Shown here piece by piece: positions 6,609 to 35,885 of a stretch of DNA of 36,119 nt. The notes under the pieces were generated by a model, which saw only the letters and a program-made list of their open reading frames with translations, was not told where the DNA came from and searched no databases. Source of the DNA: an uncultured Endomicrobiia bacterium (lineage in GTDB: Bacteria; Elusimicrobiota; Endomicrobiia; Endomicrobiales; Endomicrobiaceae); NCBI GenBank assembly GCA_905234925.1, contig CAJOJJ010000003.1:1-36119 (forward strand), given 5' to 3'. A program made the translations under genes and the position numbers. Numbering within the stretch: the first letter of the stretch is position 1; every line of letters begins with the position of its first letter.

Positions 6609-7025
6609 TTATATTTCTCCAATAGTAGATCCTGTTGTTATATTGTATCTTATTTCTAAATATGTTTTTCCATTATCTATTAAATTTTCCGGCTTTACTA
6701 TGTAAGCCTGAAAATACGATTTTTCTGAACCAGGATCACCCGGCTGCATCCATGTAAAATATTTATTCCCTCGAGCATCAATTCCTAAAACAGTTTCAAA
6801 ACATGTCCAAATACCGCTCATTTCCTGTTCTCTCAAAAAATTCCCATATTCGCTGTAATATGCTTTTTGTGCAGAAAGTATTACTCCCAATAATGAATAT
6901 CCTTCCGACATCATCGCTTTATTTACATACCCTCTGTAAATAGGAACAGAAATTACCGACAAAATGATAACGATTGCAATCGTGATTACCAACTCTACTA
7001 AAGTAAAACCTTTCAATCTTTTCAT
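6609..7025 (-). CDS. Type IV prepilin-like protein
   Basis: A pilin- or pseudopilin-type protein of 138 residues. It begins M-K-R-L-K-G followed by F-T-L-V-E, the class III signal cut by prepilin peptidase after Gly6, with the conserved Glu at mature position 5 and a hydrophobic helix to about residue 27. The C-terminal part contains G-I-D-A-R-G-N-K-Y-F, closely matching N-I-D-A-R-N-N-S-Y-F in the second prepilin (12771-13157), so the two are paralogues. The start is supported by AGGAGG seven bases upstream. It has its own near-consensus promoter and terminator and no pilus assembly genes beside it. Whether it forms a pilus, a competence pseudopilus or a secretion pseudopilus cannot be told. 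Confidence 0.88.
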   Translation of the reverse strand: MKRLKGFTLVELVITIAIVIILSVISVPIYRGYVNKAMMSEGYSLLGVILSAQKAYYSEYGNFLREQEMSGIWTCFETVLGIDARGNKYFTWMQPGDPGSEKSYFQAYIVKPENLIDNGKTYLEIRYNITTGSTIGEI

Positions 7026-7059
7026 AATATCCTCCTAAATTGATTTTTTCCGTGCGTAT

Positions 7060-7639: not shown

Positions 7640-7725
7640 CTATTTAATATAATGTACAATGAACAACAATTAAAGACAACAACGGCTCGCAACGACACAG
7701 CTGCGCGGTTGAACAGCCCAAAATG
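7640..7725. repeat. Mosaic intergenic repeat before the SpoU methyltransferase
   Basis: An AT module (ATATAATGTACAATG near 7646-7660) is followed by GAACAACAATTAAAG and then CAACAACGGCTC. About 27 of 31 bases of the second part match bases inside the FAD oxidase coding sequence near 34618-34648. The first part recurs before rnpB and inside the oxidase gene. No gene is visible between the terminator at 7610 and the start at 7759. Confidence 0.55.
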
Positions 7726-7758
7726 TGCGGTCGTTATATATTAACATATGGAGAAAGT

Positions 7759-8607
7759 ATGCTCATTACCGGTCCACACAACGATATAATTAAACAGATT
7801 ATTGCTCTTAAACAAAAGAAAAACAGAGACGAGCAAGGTTTATTTATTGTGGAAGGGCAGAAACAGGTTTCGGAAATTCCGAAAGACTGGAAAATAAAAT
7901 ACACAGTAACGACAGAAAACGACAAAAAGAGGAAAGACAACGGTAACATAGATTCCGCGTCAGAACGTTACCGTTCGCACGGAATGACAAGCAATATTCA
8001 AGTTTATGAAGTTTCCAAACAATTATTTAAAAAAATATCCGGAACGGAAACACCTCAGGGAATTTTAGCGGTTGTGGAAAAAAAGAAGTACGACATTGAA
8101 AAAACGTTAAACCTAAAAGGTATTTTTATTGTTTGCGACAATTTGCAAGATCCCGGCAACGTCGGCACTATCATAAGAACGGCAGAAGCTTTCTCCTGTA
8201 AAGGAATTTTTCTTTCCAAAAATTCTGCAGATGTTTACGGCGATAAAGTTGTGCGTGCCACAATGGGTGCGATTTTTAATATCCCGCTATTTCAAGAGTG
8301 CGATATTGTGCAGTTAATAAAAACTTTCAAAGAAAAAAATATACGGACCTGTGCATTGGCATTAGACGGAAGTAAAAATTTACAAGAATTAAAATTAAAT
8401 TCCGATTCCGCTGCAATTATTGTGGGAAATGAAGCAAAGGGAATATCGCCTGAAGTACTGAATATTACCGACGACAAAATAAAAATAGAAATGACTGGAA
8501 AAGCGGAATCTTTAAACGCTGCAATTGCCACAGCTATAGCAATTTATAATTTACAATTAACAACAACGACAAACAGAGAGATTCCCGACAGAAACATTCG
8601 GGAATGA
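7759..8607 (+). CDS. SpoU/TrmH-family 2'-O-ribose RNA methyltransferase
   Basis: A SAM-dependent enzyme that methylates a ribose 2'-OH in rRNA or tRNA; the target cannot be told. The 282-residue protein has an N-terminal substrate-binding domain (about 1-105, beginning L-I-T-G-P-H-N-D-I-I-K) and a SPOUT knot domain with N-L-Q-D-P-G-N-V-G-T-I-I-R-T-A near 128, VGNEAKGIS at 222-230 and SLNAAIATAIAIY at 251-263. I chose the ATG at 7759 for its GGAGA site and family-like N-terminus. Two stretches look foreign: residues about 53-79 are encoded by a palindromic repeat, and the last 17 or so residues after A-I-Y-N-L are encoded by another copy, whose 3' arm supplies the stop codon. Confidence 0.9.
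   Translation: MLITGPHNDIIKQIIALKQKKNRDEQGLFIVEGQKQVSEIPKDWKIKYTVTTENDKKRKDNGNIDSASERYRSHGMTSNIQVYEVSKQLFKKISGTETPQGILAVVEKKKYDIEKTLNLKGIFIVCDNLQDPGNVGTIIRTAEAFSCKGIFLSKNSADVYGDKVVRATMGAIFNIPLFQECDIVQLIKTFKEKNIRTCALALDGSKNLQELKLNSDSAAIIVGNEAKGISPEVLNITDDKIKIEMTGKAESLNAAIATAIAIYNLQLTTTTNREIPDRNIRE
7938..7990. repeat. Palindromic repeat inside a coding sequence
   Basis: CGGTAAC at 7941-7947 pairs with GTTACCG at 7967-7973, and ATTCCG at 7952-7957 with CGGAAT at 7980-7985, followed by GACA. This is the same GATTCC..GGAATGACA layout as the repeats at 8580 and 25196. It is read in frame as part of the SpoU methyltransferase, between two conserved parts of its N-terminal domain. Confidence 0.55.
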
Positions 8608-10703: not shown

Positions 10704-10716
10704 TAATGAAAAGATA

Positions 10717-10785
10717 ATGAAAGTAAAGAAAGGTTTTACCTTAGTAGAGTTGGTTGCCTTCTTTGGTCTTTCAGTCAGATTATAA
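10717..10785 (+). pseudogene. Prepilin 5'-end fragment (22 codons)
   Basis: The frame reads M-K-V-K-K-G then F-T-L-V-E-L-V-A, a complete class III signal peptide and prepilin-peptidase site, then runs into unrelated residues (F-F-G-L-S-V-R-L) and stops. Its bases match the 5' end of the prepilin gene at 7025 over about 26 positions with one difference. No hydrophobic helix or globular part follows, so I read it as a truncated remnant. Its far end coincides with the -10 box of the pfkA promoter on the other strand. Confidence 0.65.
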
Positions 10786-14017: not shown

Positions 14018-14029
14018 AGTTGTAAGTTA

Positions 14030-14090
14030 CCGTTTCGTCGTTTATTATACATTGTACATTATTGTACATTATAAATTATAAATTGTAGTA
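14030..14090. repeat. AT-rich mosaic repeat before rnpB
   Basis: Read on the minus strand, this stretch gives CAATTTATAATTTATAATG, then GTACAATAATGTACAATG and TATAATAAACGACG. The same modules occur at 8618-8646, 22823-22844, 25160-25188 and, within a coding sequence, 34580-34605. TATAAAT at 14077-14083 may also serve as the rnpB -10 region. Confidence 0.5.
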
Positions 14091-14092
14091 TA

Positions 14093-14467
14093 GGGGCAGA
14101 TGTTCGGCGGTCGCTTTACACTTGTTGTAAAGAGGAAAGTCCGAACTTTAATCTCTCAAAAGAGAGAAAAACGGTAGCGGGCAATTCCCGCAGTCAGCAA
14201 TGACAGAGGTGCGAACAGTGACGGCATTTTCCCGAAAGGGAAAGGCATTCCTCATCATAAAATCTCCTATAAAAAAAAGAGGAATAATTCCCGTTATAAT
14301 TTTTTTCTTTTTTCAATAAGACGGGAAATGAAACGGCTAAATCCTTACCGGAAAGCAAGACAGCAGTTGTTGTCGCTTGACCGCACGAAGCAATTTGTGC
14401 GGCAGAGAAATGACCGCAGGTGTTTATTTTTAAACATTACGGAATTCGGTGTATGAGCATCTGCCCT
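14093..14467 (+). ncRNA. rnpB: RNase P RNA (class A)
   Basis: The catalytic RNA that trims tRNA 5' leaders. The ends pair through GGGCAGATG near 14094 and CATCTGCCC at 14458-14466 (helix P1). Conserved core segments are present: GAGGAAAGTCC near 14131, ACAGAGGTGCGAACAGTGACGG near 14203 (split here by helix boundaries), GAAACGGCTAAATCC near 14328, AAGACAGCAG near 14357 and AGAGAAATGACCGC near 14404. The length of about 375 bases is normal. The A/T-rich insertion near 14255-14320 forms helices in the P12-P14 region (CCCGT/ACGGG and ATTCCTC/GAGGAAT). Confidence 0.92.
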
Positions 14468-14489
14468 AAATTTGCGAAGCAAATTTAGG
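14465..14489. repeat. Perfect palindrome at the rnpB 3' end
   Basis: CCTAAATTTGC (14465-14475) and GCAAATTTAGG (14479-14489) form an 11-pair stem with a GAA loop. It starts inside the last two bases of helix P1. No T-run follows. It may help define the RNA 3' end or be a fold-back repeat like the one at 13985-14017. Confidence 0.65.
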
Positions 14490-14582
14490 TTATAAGATTA
14501 TAAGTTTATAAGGTTATAAAAGATAAAAACTAATAAATTACAAAACAAACTCATAACCTTATAACCTGATAAGCTTATAAAC
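14490..14582. repeat. TTATAAG-type repeat, copy 1
   Basis: The left half consists of direct TTATAAG-type units; the right half (CATAACCTTATAACCTGATA, 14552-14571) contains their complements, giving a long imperfect palindrome. Its complement matches 27178-27219 closely, so the same element occurs twice in the window in opposite orientation. It lies just before rsmH and occupies most of the gap after rnpB. Confidence 0.65.
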
Positions 14583-14592
14583 TAAAATAATT

Positions 14593-25365: not shown

Positions 25366-26103
25366 ATGAAATATAATATTCTAATAAGCAATGATGACGG
25401 AATAAAAGGTCCCGGCTTAAAACCTTTAATTAGTGAACTTGAAAAGTTTGCAAATATTTTTGTGGTTGTACCGAAACATGAAATGTCGGGAACAAGCCAG
25501 TCAATTCATTTAAAAAAATATTTGAAACTTGAAAAAATAAAAAATAATATTTTTGCTCTTATCGGAGGAACTCCGACGGATTGCGTAAAATATGCGTTAT
25601 ATTCTTTTTTTAAAGATAAAATAGATTTGGTTGTTTCGGGGATAAACACTTGTGCAAATTTGGCACAGGATGTAATTTATTCCGGAACTGTTGCCGCAGC
25701 CCGTGAGGGTGCATATCTTGGAATACCGTCAATGGCAGTTTCAGCATTTAATGAAGAAAATCCCTGTTATAATAAAGTTGCCGCAGCCTGTGCAAAGATA
25801 GCAAAGCAGATATTAAAAAATGAAAAAAAAGGTCGTCCTGCACTATGTTTGAATATAAATATTCCCGCAAACTACAAAGGAATAAAAGTTGTTCCCTTAG
25901 GAATAAGACAGTACGACGAAACTGTTGTGGAAAAGAAGACCAGAAAAGGAACTTACTATAAATTAGCCGGCAGATTTATTTCCGGAGAAAAAAACAAAAA
26001 TTCCGATATTCTTGCCGTTGAGCAAGGCTATATTTCCGTTACTCCTCTTAATTTAGATCATACGAATTTCAAAAAAATTAAAAGTATTTCGTTTGTTAAA
26101 TAA
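25366..26103 (+). CDS. surE: 5'/3'-nucleotidase SurE
   Basis: A metal-dependent phosphatase that removes phosphate from nucleoside monophosphates, associated with stationary-phase survival in E. coli. The 245-residue protein starts M-K-Y-N-I-L-I-S-N-D-D-G with metal ligands Asp10 and Asp11, then M-S-G-T-S-Q-S-I near 42, G-T-P-T-D-C-V near 67, V-V-S-G-I-N near 86 and Y-S-G-T-V-A-A-A-R-E-G near 101. AGGAG precedes the ATG. Its 3' end overlaps hemW, which converges from the other strand, by eight bases. Confidence 0.94.
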   Translation: MKYNILISNDDGIKGPGLKPLISELEKFANIFVVVPKHEMSGTSQSIHLKKYLKLEKIKNNIFALIGGTPTDCVKYALYSFFKDKIDLVVSGINTCANLAQDVIYSGTVAAAREGAYLGIPSMAVSAFNEENPCYNKVAAACAKIAKQILKNEKKGRPALCLNINIPANYKGIKVVPLGIRQYDETVVEKKTRKGTYYKLAGRFISGEKNKNSDILAVEQGYISVTPLNLDHTNFKKIKSISFVK

Positions 26104-27169
26104 AGTCCGAAAGGATAGAATTCGATATAAACAGGGATTTTTCGCTAAAAGAAATTTTCCCGTTTTTTAATATAAGTATTTTTTCTTTAATATATTTTTC
26201 CAATATATCTTCTTTATTTTTAAAATATTTTATATCTACGCCCTCCGAAAGACGAAGACCGAGCATAATTGTTTCTTTATTGTACAATTCATCGTCAATA
26301 AATTCTCTTTCAATAACGGTATCTTTATTATTTAAAATATTTTCAATATATTTCAATATATCCGTTTCGTTTTTATATCTGTACCTTTTATAATACGACG
26401 AAGAAGACGTGCCGAGCCCGATATATTCCCTGTTCTGCCAGTAAAGCTTATTATGACGGGAATATCTTTGTTCTTTTGCCCAATTGGAAATCTCGTAATG
26501 TTCAAAATTATTATTCCTTAACATATCACAGGTAAGTCTATACATTTCAGCCTGTAAATCCGTGTTGACCGAAATATTGTTCTTATAAAATATTGTTCCC
26601 TCTTCTATCGTTAAAGGATACAATGAAATATGTTGAGGATTTAAAGACAAAGCTTCCGTTAATGTGTTTTGCCAATCGTTGATACTCTGCCCAGGAATGC
26701 CGAACATTAAATCTATATTTATATCGTCAAAACCTGTTTCTTTTGCCGAAAAATAAACTTTTTTAAAATCTTCGTAATTATGCAGACGTCCCAAAATTTT
26801 CAATTTATCATCGAACACACTCTGCAGACCGAAACTTAAACGAGTTATGCCCGAACCGAATAAAAGATTAAGTTTTTCCTGAGTTACGGATTCGGGATTT
26901 GCTTCAAAGCTCCACTCACGCAAGTTTGAAATATTAAAATTATCTTTAATTGTTGAGATTAATTTTTTCAGCTGTTTAACGGATAAAACCGACGGTGTTC
27001 CGCCGCCGATATAGACTGTTTCAAGAGTTTCGTTTTTATATTTTGCGGCTTCTTTTTCCAAAGCATTTAAATATTTATCGGCAATTTCTTCCGTATATGC
27101 GACAGAAACAAAATCACAGTAGAAACATTTTTTTCTGCAAAATGGTATATGAACGTATAAAGCGAACAT
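26096..27169 (-). CDS. hemW: HemW-like radical SAM protein
   Basis: A radical SAM enzyme of the HemN/HemW group. The 357-residue length and the N-terminal Y-V-H-I-P-F-C-R-K-K-C-F-Y-C-D-F with cluster cysteines 11, 15 and 18 fit HemW, the proposed haem chaperone, rather than the longer oxygen-independent coproporphyrinogen oxidase HemN. Other landmarks are Y-I-G-G-G-T-P-S near 53, S-F-G-L-Q-S near 131 and L-M-F-G-I-P-G-Q near 169. No haem synthesis genes are in the window. A TTATAAG-type repeat lies immediately upstream and no ribosome binding site is clear. Confidence 0.88.
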   Translation of the reverse strand: MFALYVHIPFCRKKCFYCDFVSVAYTEEIADKYLNALEKEAAKYKNETLETVYIGGGTPSVLSVKQLKKLISTIKDNFNISNLREWSFEANPESVTQEKLNLLFGSGITRLSFGLQSVFDDKLKILGRLHNYEDFKKVYFSAKETGFDDINIDLMFGIPGQSINDWQNTLTEALSLNPQHISLYPLTIEEGTIFYKNNISVNTDLQAEMYRLTCDMLRNNNFEHYEISNWAKEQRYSRHNKLYWQNREYIGLGTSSSSYYKRYRYKNETDILKYIENILNNKDTVIEREFIDDELYNKETIMLGLRLSEGVDIKYFKNKEDILEKYIKEKILILKNGKISFSEKSLFISNSILSDFI

Positions 27170-27175
27170 AATTTT

Positions 27176-27270
27176 TAGTTTATAAGATTATAAGGTTATT
27201 AGGTTATGAGTTTGTTTTATAGTTTGTCGTTAAACTTATAATCTTATAATCTTATAAGCTAATAACCTGC
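27176..27270. repeat. TTATAAG-type repeat, copy 2
   Basis: This 95-base gap between tamB and hemW is filled by an element matching the complement of 14490-14582: TTATAAGATTATAAGG, GGTTATGAGTTTGTTTT, then complementary CTTATAATCTTATAATC and a final GCTAATAACC. The arms could fold into one long A/T-rich hairpin. Confidence 0.65.
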
Positions 27271-33614: not shown

Positions 33615-33720
33615 TATAATATGCATATTACTATAAATTTTAAATTGTCGTATCATCTCGAACATTTTTACTTTTTGCTGTTTGCAGCTGCAGTTTATTA
33701 TACATTATACATTATACATT
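33615..33720. repeat. Mosaic repeat before the exonuclease gene
   Basis: Read on the minus strand, this holds (GTATAAT)-type tandem units (three and a half copies of a 7-base unit at 33697-33720), then AATAAACTGC, TTCGAGATGATACGACAATT and AAAATTTATAG. The parts match the repeats at 812-830 and 14030-14090. A palindromic GCAGCTGC lies at about 33684-33691. No gene is seen between 33530 and 33724. Confidence 0.45.
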
Positions 33721-34322: not shown

Positions 34323-35885
34323 ATGATTATTAAAACCGACCAATCAACATTTGCACATTATTTGGAAGATGCTTCGGGAATGCTCGGGGCAAATGCAGAA
34401 AAAGTTTATATTCCCGAGACAAAAGAAGAAGTTTCTTCTTTATTGAAAGAATGTTCCGAAAAGAAAATTCCCGTTACCGTAGCAGCAGGCTGTACAGGAG
34501 TTACGGGCGGATGCCTTGCTTACGGCGGAGTGATTTTATCGACGGAAAAATTTAATAAGATTGGAAAAATACAACAACGACAATGTACAATGTACAATAA
34601 ACGACAAAATGAAAATGAACAACAATTAAAAGCAACTACCGCTCATAATAACGGACAAAGCGGCATAGAAACGGCAACTATTAGAGTGGGAAGCGGTGCG
34701 ATAGTAAACGAGATTAAAAGTTATGTTTTGTCTCAAGGCTGGATGTATGCACCCGACCCTACAGAAAAAAATGCTACTATCGGCGGGAACATTTCTACCG
34801 ATGCTTCAGGCGGAAGAGGTTTTAAGTACGGTACAACCAGAAAATATATTAATGCAATAGAGATAGTTTTGTCCGACGGTTCATATGCAAACATAAGAAG
34901 AGGCGAAACATTTGCTTCCGACGACGGAACGGTTGTTCTAAAAACAAATCTCGGCGAAAAAATTTTACATTTGCCGAAATACAAATTACCGAACATAAAA
35001 AATGCCGCCGCATATTATAACTACAAAAATGCCGACCTGATAGATGTTTTTATCGGGCATGAGGGAACGCTGGGCGTAATAATTTCCGCAGAATTGATAC
35101 TGATAAGACCTTTTGAAATGCTCTTCGGAGGGATAATCTTTTTCGATAAAAAAGAAAAATCCTGGGATTTCGTTAAAGAAATAAGAACTTTGTCCGAACA
35201 AAATAAAAAGAGCGGCGCCGTTGATATAAATGCAATGTCTGTAGAATATTTCGACAAAAATGCTCTTAACTTAATTAAGCCGTATTATCCCGTAATACCG
35301 GAAAATGTTGATGCGGGAATTTTATTCGAGCAGGACTGTACAAAAGAAACATACGATATTTTAATGGAAAAATGGATTGATATTATAGAAAAATACGGTA
35401 TAAACACCGACGATGTTTGGTTTGCTTCCGATGCTAAACAGCAGGAAGAGTTTAGAATATTCCGACATAAAATACCTGAATGTGTAAACGAAATAGTGAA
35501 AAAAAACAAAATTCCTAAAGTCGGTACGGACGTTGCCGTTCCTCACGATAAACTGCATGAGATGATATATTTCTGCGAACAGAAATTTAAAGAAAACAAT
35601 CTTTTTAATTTAACATTCGGACATATAGGAGAAAGCCACCTGCATGCAAATATAATTGCCTCAACGCAGGAAGAATATGAACGCTGCAAAAGTTTATACT
35701 TGGAAATTGCACGCAAAGCCGTTTCTCTGGGCGGTACCGTTACTGCCGAACACGGCATAGGAAAAGTAAAACATCACTTTTTGGAAGCAATGCTCGGTAA
35801 AGAGGGTATTGAAGAGATGCGTAAATTTAAGCTGTCGTTAGACCCTTCAAATATTCTCGGACAGAACAATATGTTTAAAATTTGA
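34323..35885 (+). CDS. FAD-linked oxidase, GlcD / D-lactate dehydrogenase family
   Basis: A flavoprotein of 520 residues that probably oxidises a 2-hydroxy acid such as glycolate or D-lactate. An N-terminal PCMH FAD-binding domain (about 25-245) shows A-G-C-T-G-V-T-G-G near 55, G-G-N-I-S-T-D-A-S-G-G near 153 and F-I-G-H-E-G-T-L-G near 247. The C-terminal FAD-oxidase domain has F-G-H-I-G-E-S-H-L-H-A-N near 436 and T-A-E-H-G-I-G-K near 475. Residues about 84-114 (rich in Gln, Asn, Arg and Thr) interrupt a short link between two strands of the FAD domain and are encoded by a repeat also found between genes. The frame is kept, so the protein may still work. It forms an operon with the exonuclease. 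Confidence 0.88.
   Translation: MIIKTDQSTFAHYLEDASGMLGANAEKVYIPETKEEVSSLLKECSEKKIPVTVAAGCTGVTGGCLAYGGVILSTEKFNKIGKIQQRQCTMYNKRQNENEQQLKATTAHNNGQSGIETATIRVGSGAIVNEIKSYVLSQGWMYAPDPTEKNATIGGNISTDASGGRGFKYGTTRKYINAIEIVLSDGSYANIRRGETFASDDGTVVLKTNLGEKILHLPKYKLPNIKNAAAYYNYKNADLIDVFIGHEGTLGVIISAELILIRPFEMLFGGIIFFDKKEKSWDFVKEIRTLSEQNKKSGAVDINAMSVEYFDKNALNLIKPYYPVIPENVDAGILFEQDCTKETYDILMEKWIDIIEKYGINTDDVWFASDAKQQEEFRIFRHKIPECVNEIVKKNKIPKVGTDVAVPHDKLHEMIYFCEQKFKENNLFNLTFGHIGESHLHANIIASTQEEYERCKSLYLEIARKAVSLGGTVTAEHGIGKVKHHFLEAMLGKEGIEEMRKFKLSLDPSNILGQNNMFKI
34572..34664. repeat. Mosaic intergenic-type repeat read in frame inside the oxidase gene
   Basis: The stretch holds CAATGTACAATGTACAAT, AAACGACAAAATG, then AATGAACAACAATTAAAAGC and AACTACCGCTC. 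The last two parts match 7656-7688 at about 27 of 31 positions, and the first two match the complement of 14035-14060. It contributes about 31 codons without a stop. Confidence 0.6.

Follow-up and report, generated by a model that had tools for sequence, protein, structure and literature searches.

Rickettsial palindromic elements (RPEs) occur in frame within Rickettsia genes (Ogata et al., 2000; Ogata et al., 2002; reviewed in PMC2229807 and PMC10969869), and an RPE-carrying Gmk has been shown to be produced and active (cited in PMC2229807). The RPEs of R. conorii have been assigned to the superfamily of CGTC-tagged REPs, whose units of ∼20-40 bp have a stem of 8-9 bp and a loop of 4-5 nt and are arranged predominantly as head-to-head dimers (Di Nocera et al., 2013; PMC3733652). 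CGTC REPs are usually found without an associated transposase and are listed for Proteobacteria, Chlorobi, Bacteroidetes, Spirochaetes and Thermotogae, with Elusimicrobiota absent from the list (PMC3733652). Intragenic CGTC/GTAG REPs have been published, DNA polymerase I being among the hosts, and in one case, recB, different REPs lie at about the same site in two species (PMC3733652). The enterobacterial MITEs with open reading frames, ERIC and YPAL (Delihas), have terminal inverted repeats and target-site duplications (PMC2229807). Apart from such isolated examples of REPs and ERIC, the occurrence of palindromic repeats in frame within conserved enzymes has so far been treated as largely a Rickettsia trait. 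Here we argue, with a probability of roughly 0.87, that a segment of a GlcD-like enzyme from an uncultured rumen Elusimicrobiota derives from a non-autonomous repeat scattered through the genome, one copy of which is translated in frame and kept as a tolerated disordered loop much as RPEs are.

The window, the whole stretch of 36,119 nucleotides analysed here, corresponds to contig C3 of an assembled genome (G000; 1.37 Mb in 106 contigs) whose genus also includes Ca. Ruminimicrobiellum caprinum (G067/L031) and further Elusimicrobia of the rumen. The host gene (34323-35885, forward strand) is open throughout and encodes a GlcD/D-lactate dehydrogenase-like FAD oxidase of 520 aa, with Pfam matches to FAD_binding_4 (9.5e-25) and FAD-oxidase_C (7e-38). 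A sequence search of the PDB gives the same placement, and the top matches of a Foldseek fold search are mLDHD, D-2-hydroxyglutarate dehydrogenase and 7qh2_C. An earlier note on this DNA had proposed that an intergenic repeat of ∼31 codons is read in frame inside this flavin oxidase, at 34572-34664 on the forward strand (residues 84-114, QQRQCTMYNKRQNENEQQLKATTAHNNGQSG). The location is confirmed, and the size is corrected: compared with relatives the net gain is 84 nt, or 28 codons, and the part homologous to the composite repeat is 34576-34653 (+). The richness of the segment in Gln, Asn, Arg and Thr, remarked on in the note, amounts to 55%, compared with 15% across the remaining protein.

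The insert is a lineage-specific gain. In a DNA-level alignment it is missing from the glcD of eight relatives, and one sister species has a different insert. The relatives' protein reads continuously as GKIQE-ISKDKALI, where that of the source genome reads GKIQQRQCTMYNKRQNENEQQLKATTAHNNGQSGIETATI. Matches were obtained in 63 of 77 family genomes searched, and in nearly all of them the query splits at residues ∼85|117; among 18 aligned family GlcD proteins, only those of the source genome and the sister species have a segment here. Homologues from other phyla are also without the segment, and those of solved structure are broken at the same place; A. woodii LctD (7qh2_C), for example, aligns as residues 18-86 and then 111-189. 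In the AlphaFold model, of modest overall confidence (mean pLDDT 70), the insert is a loop with block mean pLDDT values of 25-33, and the least confident part of the protein falls within residues 88-114. This loop lies between strands 84-86 and 117-123, as expected from the earlier suggestion that two strands of the FAD-binding domain are split, and the insert, like those in the other enzymes, probably adds a floppy surface loop.

The bases of the insert find ∼55 matching pieces within the source genome, the best other copy at E=8.7e-14. The two outcomes that the earlier note had named as refuting its proposal, a segment of the same length in other phyla or a lack of further genomic copies, were both looked for and neither was seen. 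Both intergenic resemblances in the window on which the earlier note had relied are borne out. The composite repeat before the TrmH/SpoU gene (7647-7696, +; 90% to the consensus) matches the insert over ∼32/38 columns with a score of 44, where the maximum of 1000 shuffles is 29, and the AT module before rnpB matches at 26/28 positions with a score of 46 (shuffle maximum 31). The intergenic heptad module before rnpB (14019-14065, -) forms an inverted repeat (I4) with 34577-34623, at 79% identity over 47 nt. Another intergenic heptad module, at 33693-33720 (-; inverted repeat I12), immediately precedes an exonuclease gene, which itself lies upstream of glcD. The rnpB gene itself (14095-14469) scores 88.8 bits with RF00010, below the gathering score of 100; one helix of its RNA is extended by a long A/U-rich insertion, while parts of the model elsewhere are missing. 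A separate type of intergenic repeat, inverted arrays of a AGGTTATA-like 8-base unit, occurs at 14484-14587, just after rnpB, and at 27166-27265, upstream of the gene at 26096-27169.

When the copies are set side by side, the composite element has the order GACACCGGATTGCCACC-AAAAG, heptads (ACAATGT)n ending ACAATAAACGACAA, CGGCAATGAACGACAATTAAAGACAACGTC and GGCTCGCAATGACG. At either end stands one arm of a palindrome (CGTCATTGCGAG...GTGGCAATCC). This palindrome is also found alone as CGTCATTGCGAG-CCGAC-AAA-GTCGG-CGTGGCAATCC; often, TACAATG-type heptads and AAACGACAA take up the space between its arms. Of 40 NGTCATTGCGAG sites in 606 kb sampled from the source genome, 36 begin with the CGTC tag, which, together with the palindrome arms at both ends, places the heptad module in or adjoining a CGTC-tagged REP. 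The same sample holds 83 heptad arrays, and AAACGACAA is what most often comes next. The GlcD copy is 81% identical to the composite consensus and contains heptads, AAACGACAA, AATGAACAACAATTAAA and a decayed right palindrome arm, CTCATAATAACGG; its heptad module, read from the sequence as ACAATGT-ACAATGT-ACAATAA-ACGACAA, occupies 34580-34607 (+). Matches to the 94-nt consensus number 44 in the source genome, 14 in G067, 11 in G073 and 0-8 in other congeners, so that the family is commonest in the source genome and two congeners. Translated in the sense direction the repeat is hydrophilic (..QCTMYNVQCTINDN..ERQLKTTSARND..), while the antisense strand of the consensus has two open frames, both hydrophobic. 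TACAATG-type heptads have no stop in any frame on either strand, and stops are present in TATAATG (sense strand) and in AATTATA heptads; this may explain which heptad versions occur in genes.

The tandem nature of the heptad could point to a local origin, in which slippage and point mutation built a low-complexity loop that merely resembles the repeats. Array length does differ among copies, and the corresponding loops of PolA and MurB vary in length in species without obvious repeats. The GlcD insert, however, runs past the heptads into the non-tandem GAACAACAATTAAAAGCAACTACCGCTCATAATAACGGAC, in the order of the composite element, and the inserts in TrmH and MurB are free of heptads yet match palindromic modules. 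These non-tandem matches largely refute local expansion, which we regard as very improbable.

The in-frame copy in GlcD is one of several. Five module queries on ∼606 kb of stretches from the source genome, not a random sample as some were picked for holding repeat matches, returned 162 loci. Although coding sequence makes up ∼81% of the sample, just eight loci lie well within genes, flanked on either side by coding signal; taken overall, genes show a strong depletion of the modules. The hosts are GlcD and TrmH, both in the window, together with LplA, FolP, MurB, PolA, a rhamnosyltransferase and a U32 (TrhP-like) protein. All eight copies are sense-oriented (chance 0.004, n=8), most of them being partial modules and not complete elements. 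Antisense copies that seemed to lie in genes (e.g., L078 and L187:8201) were excluded, being mostly pre-start stretches without coding signal. Less clear cases are QueE, with repeats in its N-terminal part, and a repeat-containing membrane protein encoded where contig C5 ends.

The second in-frame insert of the window is palindromic module D (ENDKKRKDNGNIDSASERYRSHGMTS; 7918-7992, +) in the TrmH/SpoU-family RNA methyltransferase (7723-8607, +; Pfam SpoU_methylase 2.7e-38). It accounts for 18-20 residues missing from genus orthologues, and the module is 91-96% identical, in the same frame, in several other open reading frames of the source genome. The C-terminus of the same protein (8539-8604) also appears to be repeat-derived, as repeat k-mers are found there. 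Alignments show LplA to be 27 aa and FolP 12 aa longer than genus orthologues; the predicted insert peptides include, for example, QTSINNVGLPHEK in LplA and ATTAHNNGQSGIETATIR in GlcD. In MurB (L181:18916-19920) the segment occupies a loop whose length varies between other species and which, judged by the following strand, is equivalent to the FAD_binding_4 loop filled in GlcD. For GlcD, LplA, FolP, TrmH and MurB, the in-frame copy has no counterpart in orthologues, as is the case for RPEs. The PolA linker between the exonuclease domains is longer in G000, G067 and G073 alike, and differs among the three. In the rhamnosyltransferase and the U32 protein, coding sequence flanks the repeat on both sides. 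The rhamnosyltransferase-like reading frame (L075:12023-13405) also has a C-terminal PBECR1 nuclease-like domain (Pfam 5e-11), an unusual fusion. Rare, sense-oriented, frame-preserving and, where this can be judged, situated in loops or linkers, the in-gene copies fit random insertion followed by purifying selection.

Repeat modules also reach the leaders of type IV pilin-like proteins. Several such genes of the source genome have long predicted leaders before GFTLVEL that consist of repeat modules (e.g., MKTLKSNKRCRIATKRQCTINDETAMNDKLTTTARNDGQKGIKGFTLVEL), whereas the leaders of paralogues are short (e.g., MKRKLKGFTLVEL). Long leaders are found at L074:956-1633, L086:6397-6969, L080:15964-16755, L084:19352-19930, L088:3-653 and L175:1383-2216, and further in L176, L177 and L183, and they combine several modules in one and the same frame. 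Cleavage of the leader makes this part of the pilin a plausible place for repeats to be tolerated; some pilin starts may lie downstream of the repeat, which makes this set weaker evidence than the eight genes above. In the window, intergenic positions 10714-10754 resemble the start of a pilin gene at 6988-7028 (ATGAAAGTAAAGAAAGGTTTTACCTTAGTAGAGTTGGT) and are probably a pilin remnant.

In Ca. Ruminimicrobiellum caprinum (G067), GlcD has a 27-codon insert at the same site with a different sequence (EDWKHQQQTANYNYNDTGLPRAKALAMTDNRQ). Its DNA holds the plain palindrome, for which there are ∼41 matches in G000. This unit folds with 5+4 bp, a 4-nt loop and a small internal loop, and the length of the inner stem varies among other plain units; given these variable stems and the long insertion in the composite, only plain units approach the stem format of CGTC REPs. 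The best local alignment between the two GlcD inserts spans 9 nt, within the range of shuffles, and so does not support shared content; a right-hand palindrome arm (CTCGCAATGACGGAC-like) is seemingly present in both, by eye only. The G067 insert resembles the MurB insert of G000 (EDWK...D.GLPR...LAMT). The site may have received either one old insertion that was later overwritten or two separate hits. The LplA of G067 (L125) is without the insert seen in G000, but another of its loops is extended by a segment of different sequence, GKANGRKRQTENDESKNQM.

The recurrence of inserts at one place could mean that they are selected protein features, such as binding loops or linkers, and not tolerated passengers. 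The GlcD site is filled in both sister species, the GlcD and MurB inserts occupy the equivalent loop of the same fold, and pilin leaders are hit repeatedly. Selection for function would sit poorly, however, with a content at the GlcD site that is almost wholly different in the sister species, with hosts that are functionally unrelated, with a model that leaves the insert unstructured, and with the strong depletion of the modules from genes, and we give it little credence. More tentatively, coding repeats might turn over at fixed tolerant sites (the GlcD site, the MurB loop and pilin leaders), the pool continually supplying loops and leaders rather than leaving one-time debris. We consider this possible but on balance doubtful; if true, loops and leader peptides would keep arising anew from the repeat pool.

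Least probable of all is a repeat-induced misjoin that placed intergenic DNA in glcD, an error to which dispersed repeats in a 106-contig metagenome-assembled genome are prone, as the gene is in frame on both sides with flanks that match relatives normally, eight separate genes are all frame-preserving and sense-strand, and the separate G067 assembly (L031) also has an insert at the GlcD site.

Taking the segment as a retained copy of the dispersed repeat, we propose that the repeat probably entered glcD, perhaps in a single ancestral insertion, in or before the common ancestor of the G000 species and Ca. Ruminimicrobiellum caprinum. It would have been kept because the frame was preserved, the hydrophilic strand would be the one translated, and the insertion fell in a hairpin loop on the surface of the FAD domain, a tolerant place in which added unstructured residues should do little harm and be close to neutral. 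The same filter would also account for the copies in TrmH, LplA, FolP, MurB, the PolA linker, the rhamnosyltransferase, the U32 protein and the pilin leaders. Movement would have been driven by a trans-acting enzyme or by recombination. Imperfect arms (GGATTGCCAC / CTCGCAATGACG) are present, and alignment with uninterrupted relatives resolved neither a target-site duplication nor a date for the insertion at glcD; no duplication is visible because these empty sites, in the closest uninterrupted homologues, are too diverged. The source genome yielded no dedicated or REP-associated transposase. Its single Y1 transposase (L073) was considered as a RAYT/IS200 mobiliser and rejected, since it is an IS200 equivalog (137.7 bits), scores 41.3 bits against the REP-associated transposase model (cut-off 80) and has no repeat directly flanking it.

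These observations add another phylum, likewise a host-associated lineage with a small genome, in which a different composite repeat has entered conserved enzymes. It can now be tested whether coding repeats are favoured by genome reduction or by a host-associated life, and how frequently dispersed DNA supplies new protein loops; a natural comparison is offered by the sister species, whose GlcD site holds different content. Literature searches for the heptanucleotide as an STRR gave no match, and those for the palindrome letters (TCATTGCGAG) gave only unrelated ones; searches on Elusimicrobi* and Endomicrobi* found no link to extragenic, intergenic or in-frame repeats, and the Ruminimicrobiellum literature consulted describes no such repeats.

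In-frame RPEs and intragenic CGTC/GTAG REPs are the direct precedents for this locus. The comparison with RPEs, already drawn in the earlier note, is apt because the insert copies a repeat dispersed in the genome, nearly all homologues are without it, it is in frame, and it is one of several. Both families are short, non-autonomous palindromic repeats found in intergenic DNA and in frame in unrelated conserved genes, and the link rests on the CGTC tag (PMC3733652) and the way of working. The present family differs from RPEs in its phylum, in the heptad module nested in or next to the palindrome, in the mostly partial modules found in genes and in the frequent type IV pilin leader hosts. With CGTC REPs it shares the tag at one end of the palindrome, some intragenic copies and the lack of an associated transposase gene, and its plain units come close to their short stem-loop, but a heptad-containing sequence of ∼50-60 nt can fill its inner part. 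ERIC and YPAL are similar by description, as small mobile repeats with open frames fused in frame to host genes, although duplications are described for them and none was resolved here. The STRRs of cyanobacteria are dispersed tandem heptanucleotides in intergenic DNA. The present heptads are likewise dispersed and intergenic and use another heptamer; STRRs are not known to form in-frame segments of proteins or to lie within palindromes. Against this background, the heptad module, the phylum, the pilin leaders and the turnover between sister species appear to be new.
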